A DNA stretch of 64,000 bases. It comes from Desulfatiglans anilini DSM 4660. GTDB lineage: Bacteria > Desulfobacterota > DSM-4660 > Desulfatiglandales > Desulfatiglandaceae. The position numbers were made by a program, and so were the translations under genes. The notes under the pieces were generated by a model. It had not been told where the DNA came from. It saw only the letters and a list, made by a program, of their open reading frames with translations, and made no database searches. The stretch spans positions 186,001 to 250,000 of the forward strand of contig NZ_AULM01000001.1 in the NCBI RefSeq assembly GCF_000422285.1. Reading direction: 5' to 3'. Shown piece by piece: positions 23,006 through 31,266 of this stretch (its first letter is position 1; each line of letters begins with the position of its first letter).

Positions 23006-23260
23006 GGTTCGGGCAGCCGTCTGCCCGCTCGAGGCCACCGACTGGGTTCCGTGGATCCCGGGAATCCGCTGAGGCCGCCGCTCGTGCCGGTTCTACCCTT
23101 TCGGGGCGGATCCTTGCGCGGGCAAGCGCGCCGATGGGCGCCGAGAGCGGCGGGGCGGGCCGTTTTCAGGGGAAATGGGGCGGGCTGGACACCCGGTCGG
23201 GTTCGTTGCGAATGGCTATGAAGGGCCGGATCGTATCGGATGGAACAGGAGAAGTCTTCT

Positions 23261-24817
23261 ATGGAAAAAGGTTACGATTTCAGGAGGACGGTGATTTCGG
23301 CTGTGGGGCTGGCAGCCCTCTTCCTCATCGTGATGCTCGTCAATGTCCTGCTGTCTTTTGTCCCCGCGCGAATCGACGCCACCGAGGAAAAGCTCTACTC
23401 GCTCTCGGAGGGAACCCGCAACATCCTGGCTCGCCTGGATGAGCCGGTGACGATTCAGTTTTTTTTCAGCCGGGAGAGCGCCGACCTCGTCGGGCAGATG
23501 AAGCTCTACGCGCGCCGGGTTGAGGATTTCCTTTCGGAGTATGAACGTGCCGCCGGAGGAAAGATCGTGATCGAGCGGGTTGATCCCAAGCCGGACTCCG
23601 ATGCGGAGGACTGGGCTTTGAGCTACGGGCTGAAATCGCTTCCAACCGGGGGCGGTGAGCCGTTTTACTGCGGCCTGGCTTTTCTGTGCCAGGACCGGGA
23701 GGAGGTCATCGAATTTCTAGATCCCGGCAGGGAGGACCTTCTCGAATACGATGTCACCCGTTCGATCCAGCGGGTGTCGGCCGGTGCCAGGGGTGTCGTG
23801 GGGGTGATCAGCCCGCTGCCGGTCCTCGGGGCAGACCCGGGGCAGCCCGGGGCGGGGTTTCAGCAGGCCGATTCCCGGCCCTGGTTTTTTGTCGAAGAGC
23901 TCAGAAAGACCTACGAGGTTCGGGAGGTCCCCCTTTCGGCGGACAGGATCGACCCGGATGTGGACCTGGTGCTCCTCGTACATCCGAAGGATCTGGAGCC
24001 GGGAATGGAATATGCCTTGGACCAGTATGTGCTGGGGGGCGGCAGGATGGCGGTTTTCGTCGATCCGTTCTGTGTATCCGATACCGGTCGACCAATGATG
24101 TCCGGTGCGGTGCCTTCGTCTTCTCTTCCGCGTTTGTTCGGTGCCTGGGGAATCGATGTGGAAAGCGGCCGCATGGTCGTCGATTTCGAGCATGCCACGA
24201 CGGTTCGCGGCGCGACCGGCCAGACTGAAAACAACCCGCTTATCCTCTCGATCGGGAAGGATGGGCTCGATGCCGGAAACGTGGTCACCTCGCGCCTCGA
24301 GCAGATGCTCTTGCCGGTAGCCGGGGCGATTGCACGCAAGCCGGGCGCCTCTGTGGATTTCGAGCCGCTGGTTTCAACGGGCAGGGAGGCCGCGCTGGTG
24401 GAGACGGCCCGGCTGAGGGAGGATCCGGCCGGGCTCCGGAAAGGCTTTGCCCCCGGCGGGCCCTATCCCGTTGCGGTGCGGATCGGAGGACATTTCGAGA
24501 GCGCCTTTCCCGATGGACCTCCGGCCGATGAAAGCGGCGGCGAAGAGGCTTCTCCTTCGGGAGGGGCCTCCGCCCACCTCGATAAGGGGCTGAAGAGTGC
24601 GGCCGTCATTGTGGCGGCCGACGTCGATTTCCTGGCCGACCGCTTCAGCGTCCAGCGGGGCAGTGTCTTCGGATTCAATGTTGCGCAGACATTCAATGAC
24701 AACCTCAATTTCCTGGCGAATGCGTGTGAAATCCTGATCGGAGGGGATGATTTGATCGGGATTCGAAGCAGGGGGACATTCGAGCGGCCCTTTGACAAAG
24801 TGCTTATCCGTAAATAA
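23261..24817 (+). pseudogene. GldG-like ABC-system protein, 5' part, interrupted by an IS element
   Basis: The first 513 codons or so of a GldG/ABC-associated periplasmic protein, from ATG 23261 (AGGAGA just upstream; an earlier in-frame ATG at 23240 has no ribosome site). It has one N-terminal membrane helix (about residues 12-32), then LYSLSEGTRNILARLDEPVTIQFFFS, the IKVERVDP-like IVIERVDPKPDSD, and VDLVLLVHPKDLEPGMEYALDQYVLGGG, all GldG landmarks. The frame ends at a TAA supplied by the left end of the inserted element after codons for PFDKV. Removing 928 bp (the element plus one target copy) restores an uninterrupted frame of about 628 residues with the piece at 25730-26075. A truncated product lacking the C-terminal membrane helix could still be made. 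Confidence 0.85.
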
Positions 24818-25723
24818 AATGTACTTTTCTCACGACTTTTGCTATCCTGGCAGCCATCTTGAACCTTTGCGATGGAGGCCCTATGACAAAAATTCAATCG
24901 TGGGAAGTATCCGATGCCTTTTGGGAGAGGGTTAAACCCCTTGTGCCGGCGCCCGAGCGGGATCCAGAAAAATCTTACAAGCGCAAAATCGGCGGCGGAA
25001 GAAAGCCGATGCCCCCCCGGCAGATTTTTGAAGCCATCATGTACGTGCTCAGAACCGGCTGTCAGTGGAAAGCGCTTCCCAAGGAACGTTTCGGAAGTCC
25101 CAGCGCGATCCACACCCACTTCATGCATTGGATGCGTGCAGGCTTTTTTGTCGCCTTGTGGAGAGCCGGGCTTGCCGAATACGATGAAATGGAGGGCATC
25201 GCCTGGAGTTGGCAAAGCATCGACGGGGCGATGGTCAAGGCTCCCCTGGCGCTGGAAGCGGTTGGTCGGAATCCGACCGACAGGGGAAAAAAATGGGACC
25301 AAACGCCATCTGCTGGTGGACGGCCGTGGTGTCCCGCTGTCGCTCGTCGTGACCGGAGCAAACCGGCATGATGTGACCCAATTGGAACTGGTGCTGGAAG
25401 AAATCGTCATCGACCGTCCCACCGATATCCAGCAGAATCTGTGTGCGGATAAAGCCTATGATGGCAAACCGGCATTGGAGACCATCGTTGCGCACGGTTA
25501 TATTCCTCACGTGAAAACACGGGGGGACGAGCGCCAGGAAAAAAAGCGCAATCCCGCATGGAAAGCCAGAAGATGGGTCGTTGAAGTGAGTCATTCATGG
25601 TTCAATCGCTTCCGTAAACTCCTGGTTCGCTATGAGAAACTCAGCGATACCTATATGGCTTTGCTGCATATGGCTGCTGCTATCATCGCCTACCGAAAAG
25701 TAGGCGTTATTTACGGATAAGAT
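24802..25723 (+). mobile_element. IS5-family insertion sequence (IS427-like), 922 bp
   Basis: Bounded by a perfect 15-bp terminal inverted repeat: CTTATCCGTAAATAA at 24803-24817 and its complement at 25707-25721. TACTTTTC homology continues further in on both sides. It encodes one transposase in two overlapping frames (see CDS). Flanks carry the 6-bp repeat CAAAGT. The host gene reads on in frame once the element and one target copy are removed, so the insertion is recent and unrearranged. Size, two-frame organisation and transposase motifs all fit the IS427 group. Confidence 0.9.
24883..25720 (+). CDS. IS5-family transposase, two frames joined at an A7 tract
   Basis: Frame 1 starts at ATG 24883 (GGAGG upstream) and encodes the N-terminal IS5/DUF4096 region SDAFWERVKPLVP, GGGRKPMPPRQIFEAIMYVLRTGCQWKALP, and the first catalytic Asp in SIDGAMVKAPL; alone it stops at 25371. 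The rest is in the next frame: KRHLLVDGRGVPLSLVVTGANRHD, second Asp in ADKAYDG, and the third acidic residue in VEVSHSWFNRFRKLLVRYEK. The two meet at A7 (25287-25293); reading one base fewer gives the normal DRGK.GTKRHLL sequence. Such tracts in IS427 elements often support slippage or frameshifting, so the element may be active. A true mutation is the alternative. Confidence 0.85.
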
Positions 25724-25729
25724 CAAAGT

Positions 25730-26075
25730 CATTGCGCTTGAACGGGCGGCGCAGGCCAGGTGGCTCGACAAGGAAAACGAACTGCAGGAGAGGATCGAGG
25801 CGACCAACCGGAGGTTGCGTGAACTCCAGCAGCAGAAGGAAGAGACCCAGAAGCTCGTTCTGAGCCCGGAGCAGGAGGCGGAGATCGAACGTTTCCGGGA
25901 AGAAAGGCGGCGGATCAATCAGGAACTGAAGCGGGTGCGTAAGAACCTGAGGGCGGATATCGACAGACTCGGGGCGGTCCTCAAGGGGGTGAACATCTTT
26001 CTGATGCCTGCCCTGGTCGCTGTCTTCGGTTTGGGGTACGCGGTTCATCGGCGAAAGAGGATGAGGGGGAAATGA
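25730..26075 (+). pseudogene. GldG-like protein, 3' fragment downstream of the IS
   Basis: Continues the reading frame of the gene broken at 24801: VIALERAAQARWLDKENELQERIEATNRRL, a coiled-coil stretch rich in E, Q, R and K, then the C-terminal membrane helix IFLMPALVAVFGLGYAVHRRKR. An internal ATG at 25815 would allow an 86-residue remnant to be translated, but no good ribosome site is seen for it. Its stop overlaps the DUF4340 start by ATGA, as expected of the original operon. Confidence 0.85.
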
Positions 26076-27232
26076 AGGCGAAACAGGCGATCATTCTGGT
26101 GCTGATCCTGGCTGTGCTGGCAGGGGCGACGGCGCTGACCCTGCGGTTGAAGCAGCCGTCCGGAGAGGGCCTCCTTGGCCGTACGCTGCTTGAGGATCTG
26201 CCCTGGCAGGATATCGCCGCCGTTTCGATTCGCGGGTTGGAAGGCTCAGTGGGCCTCGCGGAGCGGGACGGCCGCTGGGTGGTGTTGGAGCGGGAGGGTT
26301 ACCCGGCCGATTTTTCACGCATTGCCGCCCTCGTGAAGGATGTCCGTGAGGCGAAGATCGGGCGGGTTTTCGAGCCCGATCAGGAGACCCTGGGGCGGTT
26401 GGGTCTGAAAGATCCGGAGGACCACGCGGTCCAGGCGGCGGAGGCGGCAACCCTGCTGACGCTGATGAACGCCGAGGGGGAAAGACTGGTGGAAATGGCT
26501 TTGGGCACGGACAAGCCTTCCAATCAGGGTGCCGCTGCCGGCCGGTATGTCAGGTTGAACCGGCTGCCGGGCGTTTACCGGGTGGATCGTTCCCTTGCCG
26601 TGAGCTGCCGGCCTGCCGATTGGCTGGATAAGCTGATTCTGAAAGTCGCGCCCGCCGACATCTCCGAAATCGTCTGCCGAGAGGCCGGCGTTGGCCGGGT
26701 CCGTTACCGTCTGAAACGGAATGCGCCGGAGCAATCTCTTACCCTGGAAAATCTTCCCGAACGTTACGTTTTGGACCCGGAGAAGCTGCGGCGTTTGAGC
26801 GACGCGGTTTCTTCCCTGCAGATGCTCGACCTCGAGGGCCCCCGCAGGAGCGAGGGATCCGATGGGGGCAGCTTCCCCGTGGTAATAGCCTACCGGCTGT
26901 TCAACGGGGTGGTGTATCGGATTTACCCGGGCGCCGCGTGTGTGGATGAGAAGGGCTGCCCTTTGCGGGTGGCGGTTGCCTGGGAGCCGCAGGAAAAGGA
27001 TGCGCCGGACGACGAAGCCGCTGCGTCCGCAGCTGAAACCGCGTCCGAAGGGGACGCTCCGGGGGAGGACCCTTCCGCCAGGGCTGCCGCCGAGGCTGCC
27101 AGGCTGGAGGAGAGGACGTTTCTTGTACCGGAATGGCAGCATCAACATTTTGTCTTGCAGGTGGAAGATCTGCTGGTAGCTCTCGATGAAGAGCCGGACT
27201 ACGGACATGGACAAGGTCCTGGCCGAAGATAA
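26072..27232 (+). CDS. DUF4340 domain-containing protein of the GldG-type ABC operon
   Basis: 386 residues with an N-terminal membrane anchor (AIILVLILAVLAGATALTLRL). DUF4340 features follow: WVVLEREGYPADFSRIAALVKDVREAKIGR, then LGLKDPE and LGTDKPSNQGAAAGRYVRLNRLPGVYRVD. A long Ala/Glu-rich acidic insert sits near residues 305-355. DUF4340 proteins regularly follow GldG-like genes and are thought to be periplasmic parts of the same ABC system. Expression may now be reduced because the IS lies upstream in the operon (inference). Its end overlaps the start of the larE-like gene. Confidence 0.82.
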   Translation: MKAKQAIILVLILAVLAGATALTLRLKQPSGEGLLGRTLLEDLPWQDIAAVSIRGLEGSVGLAERDGRWVVLEREGYPADFSRIAALVKDVREAKIGRVFEPDQETLGRLGLKDPEDHAVQAAEAATLLTLMNAEGERLVEMALGTDKPSNQGAAAGRYVRLNRLPGVYRVDRSLAVSCRPADWLDKLILKVAPADISEIVCREAGVGRVRYRLKRNAPEQSLTLENLPERYVLDPEKLRRLSDAVSSLQMLDLEGPRRSEGSDGGSFPVVIAYRLFNGVVYRIYPGAACVDEKGCPLRVAVAWEPQEKDAPDDEAAASAAETASEGDAPGEDPSARAAAEAARLEERTFLVPEWQHQHFVLQVEDLLVALDEEPDYGHGQGPGRR

Positions 27233-28025
27233 ATTCTCGGCCCTGCTGGACGCCCTGAAAAGGCTGGATTCGCTCGTTGTCGCCTTTTCCGGGGGGGTCG
27301 ACAGCACACTGCTCCTGGCTGGGGGTAAGGCCGCCCTCGGAAAGGACCGGGTGCTGGCTGTCACGGCTGCATCCGCCATCCGTTCAAGCGGAGAAACATC
27401 CTATGCGGTGGAGATGGCGGGCCACCTCGGGGTGCGGCAACGGGTTTTCGATCCTCGGGAAATGGATCTGAAGGCCTTCATGGCCAACGACCGGGACCGT
27501 TGTTATCACTGTAAACGTCTTCTTTTCAAACGGATTCGGGAGATCGCCGAAGAAGTTGGCCTTGCCCGCGTGGCCCACGGGGCGAACCGGGACGACCTGT
27601 TGGATTTCCGTCCCGGGTTTCGAGCTGCGGAGGAAGAGGGAATTCTTTCGCCCCTGATGACAGCAGGGCTCGGGAAGGCGGAAATCCGTGCGTTGGCGGG
27701 CCGTATGGGCCTTCCGAATTGGCGGAGACCTGCCATGGCCTGTTTGGCCACCCGGATTCCCTATGGGGAACCCCTGACGGAACGCGGCCTGAGACGGGTG
27801 GAGGAGGCGGAGGCCTATCTCGACGATCGGGGCTTTTCAGGGATCCGGGTCAGAAGCAGCCTGGGAGTCGCCCGGATCGAAGCGCCGGTGGAGGATCTGC
27901 ACCGGTTCCTGGATCCGGGCTTTCGTGCAGGCCTAATGGAGCACTTCCGGTCGCTCGGTTTCAGCCACATCTCGATCGATCTCGAAGGGTACCTGCCCGG
28001 AAAGGTGAATCGGCCGGTCGACTGA
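27186..28025 (+). CDS. larE: LarE-like ATP-dependent sulfur transferase (PP-loop)
   Basis: 279 residues from ATG 27186, or 272 from ATG 27207; both overlap the DUF4340 gene. It has the PP-loop ATP site VVAFSGGVDSTLLL near residue 32, the RCYHCKRLLF cysteine pair near 107, and MACLATRIPYGEPLT, whose Cys corresponds to the sulfur-donating Cys of Lactobacillus LarE. In lactate racemase maturation LarE converts a carboxylate on pyridinium biscarboxylate mononucleotide to a thiocarboxylate. No larA, larB or larC is in the window, as is common for LarE homologues, so a different sulfur-transfer role is possible. The next gene is a YcaO protein. Confidence 0.88.
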   Translation: MKSRTTDMDKVLAEDKFSALLDALKRLDSLVVAFSGGVDSTLLLAGGKAALGKDRVLAVTAASAIRSSGETSYAVEMAGHLGVRQRVFDPREMDLKAFMANDRDRCYHCKRLLFKRIREIAEEVGLARVAHGANRDDLLDFRPGFRAAEEEGILSPLMTAGLGKAEIRALAGRMGLPNWRRPAMACLATRIPYGEPLTERGLRRVEEAEAYLDDRGFSGIRVRSSLGVARIEAPVEDLHRFLDPGFRAGLMEHFRSLGFSHISIDLEGYLPGKVNRPVD

Positions 28026-28268
28026 AGCGGATCGCTCCCGAAGGTGGACAAGGCCGCCTTCCGGCATTATACTGCATCTCGTTCAGAAACAGACCCGCCC
28101 CGCTTTGGCGCCGCCCGAGGCATCCTGGAGGAACAGGAGCGTCCGACCGGCCACCGCCCTCCATTTCCACGGGGCCGCGCCGGTGATCCCTCAGCGCTGC
28201 AGGCGAACGATCGCGGCCGCGATCGGCTGTAAAGCCCATTTCAGACATGAAAGCAGAATAGGAGGCCG
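28026..28268 (+). other. Intergenic region between larE and YcaO genes
   Basis: 243 bp with no recognisable gene. A GAATAGGAGG ribosome site ends it at about 28257-28266. Nothing else stands out. Confidence 0.4.
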
Positions 28269-30038
28269 ATGCCTTACACCATAACCTTAAAGGATGCCTA
28301 CAAGCATTTCACGCTGGACCAGGATAAGGTCCTGACACCCGAGGAAACCGTAGGGCGTTTCAGGCGGAAACTTGCTTCACTGGATCTGGACATCCTGGCC
28401 GAGACGGTCCGGATCGATAACGGCCGCATCGGGATACCGGTCTATTTCAGTGTCTGCGGCAGGGATGCAGAGGCGGTCACCGGCACGCGCAAGCAGATGG
28501 GCAAGGGCGGAACACCGCAGCAGGCCGAGGCGAGCGCCGTGATGGAGCTGGCCGAGCGTTTCAGCTTCTTCAGTTTCTGCCGGGACGATGCCCATTTTAC
28601 GCTGGATTGCTGGGACAATCTGAAGGAACGCGCCGTCCCGCTCGAAATGATCGCCCGCTCGGTGCACGATACCTCGGAGGATGTCGACAAGGCCCTGGAG
28701 ATCTTCGCGCGGCTCCCACTCAGGTGGACGTGGGGGTACAATCTGACGCGGAAAGAAGCGGTGCTGATCCCCTTCGACTGGTTTTTCGCGATCAACGAGT
28801 TCAACGGCACTTCCGCGGGAAACTGCGTCGAAGAGGCCCTGCTCCAGGGGTTGTGCGAGGTGGTCGAGCGGCATGTCTCGAGCCTCGTGAGCAGAGGGCG
28901 GCTCAGGGTTCCGGCGATCGACCTCGACACGGCGCGGGATCCGCTGGTGAGGGAAATGCTTGCGAAATACCGTGCCGTTGGGATCGAACTGGTTGCGTCC
29001 GATTTTTCCCTGAATACGGGTATCCCGACGGTGGGGGTTCTGGCGTATGACCCGGCGACCTTCCCCCACAGGAGTGAAATCGTCTGGACGGCGGGAACCA
29101 CCCCCGACCCGGAAAAGGCCCTCAGCCGGGCTTTGACGGAGGTGGCCCAGCTCGGTGGGGACTTCGACACCGGCTCGAACTATGTCGCGAGCGGGTTGCC
29201 GAAGTTCAGGACGCTCGATGAGGCAGCCTTCATCCGCAAGGCAGGGGGAACGGTCGGGCTGTGTGATTTGCCGAATCTTTCGGACGCCAATATCCGTGTG
29301 GAGGTCGAAAACTGCGTGGACGCCCTGGCCGGCAGGGGGATGGAGGTGCTCGTGATCGATGTCATCCATCCCCGGCTGGGCGTGCCCGCTTTCTATACGA
29401 TCATCCCCGGCGCCCACTTCAGGGAGCGTGCGGCGGGGACCAGTGTAGGGATGTTTACGGCCAAAATCATGGCTGAAAAGGGAGATCCATTCCGGGCCCT
29501 GGGGGGGCTCGATCGAATGGAGAAGGCGCTTCCCGGCCGATATTACGTCCACTTTTACAAGGGCATGGCGTACCTCGAATCCGGCCGTCATCCCGAGGCC
29601 CTCGAGGCCTTCGAGCGGGCGTTGGGCCGCGATCCCAAGGAGGAGGATATCCCTACCATCCTTGTTTATGCGGCGGTATGCCTCAAGGAACTGGGGCGGT
29701 ACAGCGAGTCGATCGCGGCCGCCCGGCGGGCGGAAGGGTATGATCCCGAAAGGACGGATGTGTTCAACCTGATGGGATTTTGCTATTTCAAACTGCGGGA
29801 ACACGAAAAGGCTATTGCGTGTTTTGAGCGGTCTATCGAGTTGGATCCGTCCTCGGCGATCGACTATGCAAATATTGCCTCCAATTACCGCGATATGGGA
29901 GATCGGGAACGGGCCATCCATTATTATCGGCTTGCATTGGAGATCGATCCGGGAATAGGATTCGCTAGAGAGAATCTCGATCGGCTGACAATGGGAAAGA
30001 CCGGCGGAGGCAGCGGTCCAAACGGCCATGGAGGATGA
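28269..30038 (+). CDS. YcaO-domain protein with C-terminal TPR repeats
   Basis: 589 residues. Residues from about 60 to 400 form a YcaO domain with its ATP/Mg ligands: ASAVMELAERFSFF near 90, GTSAGNCVEEALLQGLCEVVERH near 180 and LSRALTEVAQLGG near 285. Residues from about 425 to 575 are TPR units, e.g. YYVHFYKGMAYLESGRHPEALEAFERAL and FNLMGFCYFKLREHEKAIACFERSIELDP. YcaO enzymes use ATP to activate amide backbones, giving azolines, amidines or thioamides, or assist RimO methylthiolation. No TfuA or precursor peptide gene is visible next to it. The upstream LarE-type sulfur transferase makes a sulfur-related modification a reasonable guess only. Confidence 0.85.
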   Translation: MPYTITLKDAYKHFTLDQDKVLTPEETVGRFRRKLASLDLDILAETVRIDNGRIGIPVYFSVCGRDAEAVTGTRKQMGKGGTPQQAEASAVMELAERFSFFSFCRDDAHFTLDCWDNLKERAVPLEMIARSVHDTSEDVDKALEIFARLPLRWTWGYNLTRKEAVLIPFDWFFAINEFNGTSAGNCVEEALLQGLCEVVERHVSSLVSRGRLRVPAIDLDTARDPLVREMLAKYRAVGIELVASDFSLNTGIPTVGVLAYDPATFPHRSEIVWTAGTTPDPEKALSRALTEVAQLGGDFDTGSNYVASGLPKFRTLDEAAFIRKAGGTVGLCDLPNLSDANIRVEVENCVDALAGRGMEVLVIDVIHPRLGVPAFYTIIPGAHFRERAAGTSVGMFTAKIMAEKGDPFRALGGLDRMEKALPGRYYVHFYKGMAYLESGRHPEALEAFERALGRDPKEEDIPTILVYAAVCLKELGRYSESIAAARRAEGYDPERTDVFNLMGFCYFKLREHEKAIACFERSIELDPSSAIDYANIASNYRDMGDRERAIHYYRLALEIDPGIGFARENLDRLTMGKTGGGSGPNGHGG

Positions 30039-30159
30039 GTTACAGGCCTGACCGCGTGCGGATGGATTGAAGACCGGGGCCTGCGCCCCGAAGGCATGGC
30101 GAGTCTGCGGCGTGAGTACCTGCGTTGATCGGATGGAAACGAGGGAGGACTGAGCTGAC

Positions 30160-31266
30160 ATGGACAGGATCAGGATTGCCATTGCCGGTTTGGGGAATTG
30201 TGCAAGCTCTTTGATCCAGGGGATCGAATATTACCGTCGGAAGGAAGAGCATGAAGCCATCGGTTTCATGCACTGGAAGATCGGTGATTATCGGCCCGGA
30301 GACATCGAAGTAGCGGCGGCCTTCGACATCGATGCAAGAAAGGTCGGCAAGGATGTCTCATCCGCCATCTTCGAATTGCCCAACTGCACGCGCACGATAG
30401 AAGGGAATATTGCGCCCACGGGGGTCAAGGTCCGGATGGGGCGTGTGCTGGACGGCTGCGCCGCGCACCTGAGCCGCTATGATGAGCGGTTTCGCTTCGT
30501 ACCCGCGAAGCAGAGAGAGCCTGACAAGGACGAGGTGGTCTCCGTCCTCGAGGAGTCCGGCGCCCACATGCTGCTTAATTACATGCCGGTCGGCTCCGAG
30601 CAGGCGGCAAGGTTCTATGCCGAGTGCGCGCTGGAGGCAGGGATCGGTTTCATCAACAATATGCCGGTGTTCATTGCCAGTGATCCGGTTTGGGGGGAGC
30701 GTTTCGCCGCCAAGGGTGTCCCGGTGATCGGGGATGACATCAAGTCCCAGCTGGGGGCGACGATTGTGCACCGCGTGCTGACCCATCTCTTCGCCAACCG
30801 GGGAGTCAAGCTCGAGCGCACCTATCAGTTGAATACGGGCGGGAACACGGACTTCCTCAACATGCTCGACCGCAGCCGCCTCGCCTCGAAGCGGGAGTCG
30901 AAGACCGAGGCGGTGCAATCGCAACTGGGGGCGAACCGTTTGGAGGACGAGCAGATTCATATCGGGCCTAGCGACTGGGTGGCCTGGCAGAAGGACAACA
31001 AGGTCTGTTTCATCCGGATGGAAGGAAAGCTTTTCGGCGATGTGCCGATGAATCTCGAGCTGCGGCTCTCGGTCGAAGATTCACCCAACTCCGGCGGGGT
31101 GGTCATCGATGCGATCCGCTGCTGCAAGCTGGCTCTTGAACGCGGAAAGGGCGGCATCCTTTATTCTCCTTCCGCTTATTTCATGAAGCATCCGGCGAGG
31201 CAATACACCGATGAGGAGGCCTGGCAGATGACCGAGGATTTCATCGCCGGGAAGAGGGAGGATTGA
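30160..31266 (+). CDS. ino1: Inositol-3-phosphate synthase (prokaryotic type)
   Basis: 368 residues. The NAD-binding Rossmann start IRIAIAGLGNCASSLIQGIEYY is diagnostic of bacterial/archaeal Ino1, followed by VAAAFDIDARKVG, LLNYMPVGSEQAARFYAECAL and FINNMPVFIASDP. The catalytic core is GDDIKSQLGATIVHRVL (Lys near residue 195) and YQLNTGGNTDFLNML, then SKTEAVQS and HIGPSDWVAW. It converts glucose-6-phosphate to myo-inositol-1-phosphate with an internal NAD redox cycle. Products could feed phosphatidylinositol or di-myo-inositol-phosphate-type solutes; no partner gene is in the window. GGAGGAC upstream supports ATG 30160. Confidence 0.92.
   Translation: MDRIRIAIAGLGNCASSLIQGIEYYRRKEEHEAIGFMHWKIGDYRPGDIEVAAAFDIDARKVGKDVSSAIFELPNCTRTIEGNIAPTGVKVRMGRVLDGCAAHLSRYDERFRFVPAKQREPDKDEVVSVLEESGAHMLLNYMPVGSEQAARFYAECALEAGIGFINNMPVFIASDPVWGERFAAKGVPVIGDDIKSQLGATIVHRVLTHLFANRGVKLERTYQLNTGGNTDFLNMLDRSRLASKRESKTEAVQSQLGANRLEDEQIHIGPSDWVAWQKDNKVCFIRMEGKLFGDVPMNLELRLSVEDSPNSGGVVIDAIRCCKLALERGKGGILYSPSAYFMKHPARQYTDEEAWQMTEDFIAGKRED

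Follow-up and report, generated by a model that had tools for sequence, protein, structure and literature searches.

What does a LarE-type sulfur transferase do beside a YcaO enzyme fused to a tetratricopeptide repeat (TPR) domain? The question is raised by Desulfatiglans anilini DSM 4660, in which the two genes are neighbours on the 64,000-nucleotide stretch of DNA analysed here (the window; contig NZ_AULM01000001.1, positions 186,001 to 250,000) and in which the original prediction saw a possible pathway of protein or cofactor thiolation. Our answer, to which we give somewhat less than an even chance, is that the fused enzyme (YcaO-TPR) is a YcaO linked to dissimilatory sulfite reductase (Dsr) and probably thioamidates one of the proteins of dissimilatory sulfur metabolism; LarE would be its operon partner in particular lineages, and its sulfur donor only possibly. 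The larE gene lies directly upstream of ycaO-TPR on the same strand, and the features of the pair are as follows (coordinates of the window).

27186..28025, + strand: larE, 279 amino acids, PP-loop ATP-dependent sulfur transferase (TIGR00268, 282 bits), with the SGGVDS motif at residues 35-40
27501..27512, + strand: codons of C106-xx-C109, first half of the LarE CxxC-C cluster motif (alignment count and motif scan; motif as described in excerpts of PMC9283937)
27741..27743, + strand: codon of C186, the third LarE cysteine (alignment to LpLarE, the LarE of L. plantarum; shift by one residue as described in excerpts of PMC9283937)
28026..28268, + strand: intergenic gap of 243 bp between larE and ycaO-TPR
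28269..30038, + strand: ycaO-TPR, 589 amino acids, DVU2210-like in architecture and motif
28497..29414, + strand: YcaO domain, residues 77-382 (PF02624, 259 bits; Z 39.6 to 6peu)
28812..28871, + strand: YcaO ATP motif, residues 182-201, SAGNCVEEALLQGLCEVVER (from aligned relatives)
29445..29999, + strand: TPR superhelix, residues ~393-577 (TPR family matches; helices in the structural model)

One basis for the proposed link to Dsr is the distribution of YcaO-TPR among 395 genomes of the phylum. The enzyme is present in 149 of them (84 of 246 genera, mostly as a single copy) and dsrA (TIGR02064) in 189, and 145 of the 149 YcaO-TPR genomes also carry dsrA; four have YcaO-TPR only, 44 have dsrA only and 202 have neither. 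At the level of families, the two occur together in 40 and dsrA alone in 14 (107 families, as deduced from the family codes, entered the family-level Fisher test). The four dsrA-negative carriers of YcaO-TPR comprise two incomplete genomes (G160, 62% complete; G194, 76%) and two that are near complete (G370, G383). Within families, YcaO-TPR and dsrA are both absent, with LarE kept, in G066 and G067 (family f4) and in G226 (f21). The association runs in one direction: YcaO-TPR accompanies dsrA, and dsrA needs no YcaO-TPR. DsrD was considered as a better partner and rejected, since YcaO-TPR occurs without DsrD in 22 genomes (12 of them in family f12 and five in f55) compared to four without dsrA; both were found in 127 genomes, DsrD only in 33 and neither in 213.

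The enzyme itself scores 259 bits against PF02624 (cut-off 25.7) over residues 77-382, followed by the TPR repeats, which places it in the YcaO superfamily. The residues N185, E189, Q193, E197, E200 and R201 of the ATP motif are invariant in 47 of 47 aligned YcaO-TPR sequences, and the first serine of the motif is present in 24 of the 47. An AlphaFold2 model from 47 aligned sequences (pLDDT 92.5, pTM 0.88) has as its best solved structural match the YcaO of Methanocaldococcus jannaschii (6peu, MJ1094; Z 39.6, 344 aligned, 2.7 Å), kin of the McrA-thioamidating enzymes, and the YcaO assignment of the original prediction is upheld. Heterocyclases (Z ~36) and E. coli YcaO (Z 31.5) matched more weakly, and a Foldseek search concurred on the YcaO fold. 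Fold and ATP site are shared with the archaeal enzyme that installs the McrA thioglycine; the window enzyme nevertheless falls well below the equivalog cut-off of that family (TIGR03266, 133 versus 365 bits), the archaeal enzyme is devoid of a TPR domain, and no Mcr substrate is known for the window enzyme. A 98/98 branch of the tree separates off the TPR-type YcaOs, which form one clade. A cluster for ribosomally synthesized and post-translationally modified peptides or azolines was rejected as the principal explanation: the enzyme scores below the subfamily cut-off for azoline-forming SagD/TOMM YcaOs (TIGR03604, 113 versus 219 bits) and its neighbours vary, with no systematic search made for small precursor open reading frames (ORFs).

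A third YcaO, a distant one, is encoded in this genome (G000:C15, L002:724-2457; 577 amino acids, YcaO domain in the C-terminal half) and adjoins an ORF that reads as MobA-like. Elsewhere, two YcaO-TPR genes with internal stops (L310:7521-8611 and L311:5804-7153) are apparently decayed and stand beside a GldA-type ABC operon; the genome with the former (G032) also carries an intact, LarE-linked copy.

E. coli YcaO likewise has a C-terminal TPR domain and works without TfuA, and it thioamidates the ribosomal protein uL16 by a sulfur route that excerpts of PMC13063428 describe as unknown; the TPR domain there mediates dimerization and might help bind uL16. YcaO-TPR could accordingly be imagined to thioamidate a ribosomal protein such as uL16, its tracking of dsrA then merely reflecting the supply of sulfide in sulfidic cells. 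We consider this improbable: the window enzyme is outside the E. coli-type family (NF040716, 65 bits versus an equivalog cut-off of 700), and the distribution of YcaO-TPR follows dsrA. The protein uL16, on the other hand, is universal. On the tree, the E. coli protein branches outside the YcaO-TPR clade, on long branches.

A published counterpart is DVU2210 of Desulfovibrio vulgaris Hildenborough, a YcaO-like TPR protein of unknown function that together with Sat causes molybdate sensitivity (PMC7774982). The window enzyme has the same YcaO plus C-terminal TPR architecture and the same form of ATP motif, with 14 of 20 positions matching between SAGNTEEESILQGSCELVER of DVU2210 and its own motif (17 of 20 for a relative from family f45, L289). 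By architecture, printed motif and clade, as distinct from full-length alignment, it is assigned to the DVU2210 family; a difference is that no LarE link is reported for DVU2210 (PMC7774982). Loss of DVU2210 together with sat confers molybdate resistance, the substitution S195R in the ATP motif has the same effect as the deletion, and mutations in the two genes arise in evolved cocultures, apparently in different cells (PMC7774982); excerpts of PMC8319347 list DVU2210 among the mutated genes of one dilution line and sat (DVU1295) among those of the second of the two lines. These phenotypes are what speaks for YcaO-TPR activating an oxyanion or another small molecule instead of a protein, in line with the suggestion that DVU2210 runs a futile cycle on molybdate. 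Such a role appears very improbable, given that E. coli carrying DVU2210 is not molybdate-sensitive in rich medium (PMC7774982) and that the closest characterized folds act on peptides or proteins.

How firmly LarE belongs to the system depends on the lineage. Within Desulfatiglandales, the order of D. anilini, LarE is found in 67 and YcaO of any type in 55 of 85 genomes, and LarE stands directly upstream on the same strand in 33 of 51 TPR-type YcaO loci (51 matches including one fragment, G055; one linked locus, L087, has 1288 bp between the two matches). The other 18 loci divide into 14 with LarE elsewhere in the genome and four with none; in five of the 18 the contig offers less than 600 bp upstream, so that 33 of 46 informative loci are linked. 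Upstream of the linked LarE there are 11 gene clusters and 10 single genes over 29 loci, and downstream of the linked YcaO-TPR 10 clusters and eight single genes over 25 loci; the pair is therefore kept independently of its surroundings, and it holds as a real arrangement of the order while these change. In 14 of 32 loci the spacing of the two genes is 20 bp or less, overlaps included, compared to the 243 bp of the window. One sigma-70-like site is present in this gap (28045-28073), at a frequency not above that in shuffled sequence.

Beyond the order the linkage is not constant. LarE adjoins YcaO-TPR in one of 37 loci with a YcaO ORF (out of 40 drawn mostly one per family) and, among the named loci, in 19 of the 68 whose contig extends at least 600 bp upstream, the full set of 80 named loci coming from records titled as Desulfobacterota-type organisms or just 'Proteobacteria bacterium'. 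In family f41 the two are adjacent in three of three loci; an independent origin of the pair is not claimed there, as the f41 YcaO nests with those of Desulfatiglandales on the tree. LarE occurs in 343 of the 395 genomes, and of the 52 LarE-negative genomes at least eight, all among the 20 listed, carry YcaO-TPR, seven of these being 99-100% complete (G112, G148, G156, G182, G183, G186, G188). From the LarE-negative carriers and the rare linkage outside the order it follows that LarE is not an obligatory partner of YcaO-TPR. The expectation of constant linkage across Desulfobacterota has thus failed, and the claim that the genes are neighbours in related genomes stands for the order and falls for most of the phylum, where they are not adjacent.

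The window LarE is a clear family member (TIGR00268, 282 bits versus an equivalog cut-off of 150; LpLarE matches it with E 8e-44) and the genome's only LarE match above cut-off. LpLarE Cys176 aligns with Ala185, the nearest cysteine, Cys186, being one residue further, and C106, C109 and C186 make up a CxxC-C motif. By these residues the enzyme is predicted to be of the [4Fe-4S] type and not of the sacrificial-cysteine type, contrary to the earlier idea that it moves sulfur from its own cysteine. The one-residue offset of the third cysteine is described for CxxC-C LarE, and the LarE of T. maritima, which shares PP-loop, motif and offset with the window protein, has a bound [4Fe-4S] cluster, retains the sulfurs of its cysteines and is catalytic together with IscS (excerpts of PMC9283937); these passages describe no ycaO partner. 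The CxxC half was seen in 42 of 42 LarE ORFs inspected and the third-cysteine pattern in 33, the rest being partial or off-pattern.

A catalytic, cluster-type LarE invites the proposal that LarE and YcaO-TPR form a dedicated two-enzyme thiolation pathway, in which the [4Fe-4S] cluster would take up sulfide and pass it to the amide activated by YcaO. The adjacency kept amid changing surroundings, the frequent overlap of the genes and the genome's lack of a TfuA match, hence of a YcaO-TfuA thioamidation pair, are all in its favour. We consider the proposal unlikely. Besides the YcaO-TPR genomes that have no LarE, the YcaO-linked LarEs are not one clade: their 36 members among 58 LarE sequences need 11 changes on the tree, five of them forced by starred branches, and a dedicated clade was rejected. 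Moreover, the genome encodes, on another contig, larB (G000:C2:217699, 300.8 bits) and larC (G000:C2:256776, 211.2 bits), both above cut-off and together indicative of the nickel-pincer pathway. With larB and larC present and a single LarE, the window LarE must therefore also serve nickel-pincer cofactor synthesis; R221 and R223, the counterparts by alignment count of LpLarE Arg212 and Arg214 that are proposed to bind the substrate phosphate (excerpts of PMC9283937), are conserved, and LpLarE Ser180 corresponds to Thr189. The pair had been described as lacking tfuA, larA, larB and larC. This stood for tfuA, not found anywhere in the genome, and for larA (PF09861), whose sole match is below threshold (21.0 versus 23.3 bits); for larB and larC the absence is local only. 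The weak PF09861 match was rejected as LarA, the ORF having ferredoxin-like cysteine motifs and reading as an Fe-S protein. The genome thus shows a nickel-pincer pathway with larB and larC and without a recognizable larA, its user enzyme not being apparent.

The same facts lend themselves to an operon of convenience, LarE making solely the nickel-pincer nucleotide and YcaO-TPR acting alone with free sulfide under mere co-regulation. Sulfide is abundant in the cells of sulfate reducers, the genome has larB, larC and one LarE, and the YcaO-TPR of most lineages has no LarE adjacent; the pair, however, outlasts most other neighbours in the order. We regard this explanation as a real possibility that falls short of likely.

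Outside the order, other sulfur-related genes adjoin YcaO-TPR at some loci. The 40 loci drawn mostly one per family were joined by 20 enlarging families f82, f35, f45, f69, f34 and f41, and a YcaO ORF was present in 56 of the 60 (L246, L252, L258 and L291 gave none and were left out of the counts). The gene dsrC (PF04358, 120 bits; TIGR03342) is the next same-strand gene in 11 of the 56, from six families (L249, L288, L253, L256, L263, L268, L282, L283, L285, L286, L289; antisense ORFs of less than 75 amino acids skipped in three loci). A gene for a ferredoxin with a NIL domain (PF09383) adjoins YcaO-TPR in eight, from three families (L248, L296, L297, L262, L293, L294, L295, L278), and NIL-ferredoxin-type proteins are required for homocysteine formation in D. 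vulgaris (excerpts of PMC5764234). In the first 40 loci, drawn before the neighbours were known, the counts were five dsrC, three NIL-ferredoxin and one LarE of 37. Reading the substrate from kept neighbours was rejected, no neighbour being common to all lineages.

A second, shorter YcaO of ~442 amino acids was found in eight genomes of the D. anilini family (G023, G024, G025, G049, G051, G053, G058, G061), in each of them among dsr genes, a direct YcaO-dsr linkage that is worth separate study. In three loci (L301, L305, L307) it comes directly after the dsrA-dsrB block and is followed by a separate TPR gene, dsrD lying by coordinates between dsrB and ycaO in L301. In the other five (L302, L303, L304, L306, L308) a DUF6955 gene separates it from a nearby dsrC, and its opposite flank holds a nitrilase-type gene; part of dsrA is visible in L304, and in L306 and L308 the contig is not long enough for dsrAB to be seen. 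The names of genes in these loci come from Pfam matches of one member per cluster, and dsrB was assigned from its similarity to dsrA and its position. The short YcaO is most like E. coli YcaO, at 112 bits and below the cut-off. None was found in the dsr locus of D. anilini itself (L313), and the dsr locus of a sister genome (L318) keeps a TPR gene at the corresponding place. A YcaO of 432 amino acids (L309, G040) is outside the dsr locus, branches elsewhere and is not among the eight. There are thus two arrangements that connect YcaO and TPR modules with dsr; similarity between TPR proteins is generic, and taken alone it is weak evidence.

From the retained ATP-site residues, the missing TfuA and the TPR domain we infer that a protein of the Dsr system carries a thioamide. 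YcaO enzymes activate an amide oxygen with ATP and use sulfide as the nucleophile to give the thioamide, as in McrA and uL16 (excerpts of PMC13063428). The mechanism we propose would have YcaO-TPR function as the ATP-dependent amide-activating enzyme of Dsr sulfur metabolism in Desulfobacterota: the TPR domain would hold a single conserved protein of the cell, ATP would activate a backbone amide of this protein, and sulfide, arising from respiration or handed on by a lineage-specific sulfur relay, would replace the amide oxygen. Likely targets would be DsrAB, DsrC or a close partner. In Desulfatiglandales, larE has become the operon partner of ycaO-TPR, LarE making the nickel-pincer nucleotide and possibly also handing sulfide to YcaO; only in this lineage could it be the donor. 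A more specific version, to which we assign a low probability, is that DsrAB or DsrC carries a backbone thioamide put in by YcaO-TPR (in some genomes also by the YcaO of the dsr locus), with the sulfur coming via LarE, DsrC or NIL-ferredoxin relays by lineage. If true, such a thioamide would be the counterpart in sulfate respiration of the thioglycine in methyl-coenzyme M reductase.

Several observations weigh against the Dsr-linked thioamidation. Dsr works without YcaO-TPR in the 44 genomes with dsrA only, and dsrA was kept without it in G075 (f4) and G295 (f80); DsrD tracks the enzyme less well than dsrA does. The genomes are related, so that the two-by-two counts are not independent and their p values are too small. 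The DVU2210 deletion strain grows like the wild type on sulfate, and no direct involvement in sulfate reduction was seen by the authors of that study (PMC7774982), which is compatible with a fine-tuning modification and counts against an essential one. Most YcaO-TPR loci have no adjacent sulfur gene, and dsrC and NIL-ferredoxin occur in 0 of the 80 named loci; YcaO-TPR therefore stands alone in many lineages. The ~442-residue YcaO forms a clade apart from YcaO-TPR (on long branches). Thioamide, substrate and donor are all putative as opposed to observed.

The surroundings of the pair in the window include one gene on either side.

26072..27232, + strand: DUF4340 gene (PF14238, 67 bits), upstream, overlapping the start of larE
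30160..31266, + strand: inositol-3-phosphate synthase-like gene (PF01658, 126 bits), downstream of ycaO-TPR

The DUF4340 gene is the last of a GldA/GldG-type ABC operon, which in the family is often found flanking the larE-ycaO-TPR pair. This operon recurs before or after YcaO-TPR in the window and in L104, L106, L109, L110, L113, L114, L115, L070, L087, L100 and L101, also where LarE is not linked. In the window its GldG-like gene (23240-26075) is broken by an IS4/5-type transposase (PF13340, ~24859-25720), leaving the first 525 amino acids at 23240-24817 and an 86-residue ORF at 25815-26075 that corresponds to the C-terminus of intact relatives. The inositol-3-phosphate synthase-like cluster is downstream in six of 25 linked relatives showing a downstream gene. 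A 601-residue open frame on the minus strand (28377-30182), antisense to ycaO-TPR, is taken as a mere shadow ORF, the gene being GC-rich.

Lastly, YcaO, LarE and YcaO-TPR are already known kinds of protein, and the DVU2210 phenotype is published. In open-licence full text we found no paper on the dsrA nesting, on the dsrC, NIL-ferredoxin or LarE neighbourhoods of YcaO-TPR or on the YcaO of the dsr locus, and none joining YcaO with LarE or DsrC in the sense of sulfur donation or thioamidation. For DVU2210, which has a molybdate phenotype but no function, the nesting within dsrA carriers and the sulfur-transfer neighbours make thioamidation in sulfate respiration a testable role. The sulfur supply of a YcaO without TfuA is an open problem, also for E. 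coli YcaO according to excerpts of PMC13063428, and the LarE, DsrC and NIL-ferredoxin neighbours are candidates for it. The occurrence of YcaO-TPR almost only in bacteria that carry dsrA points to a sulfur-related protein modification in sulfate reducers.

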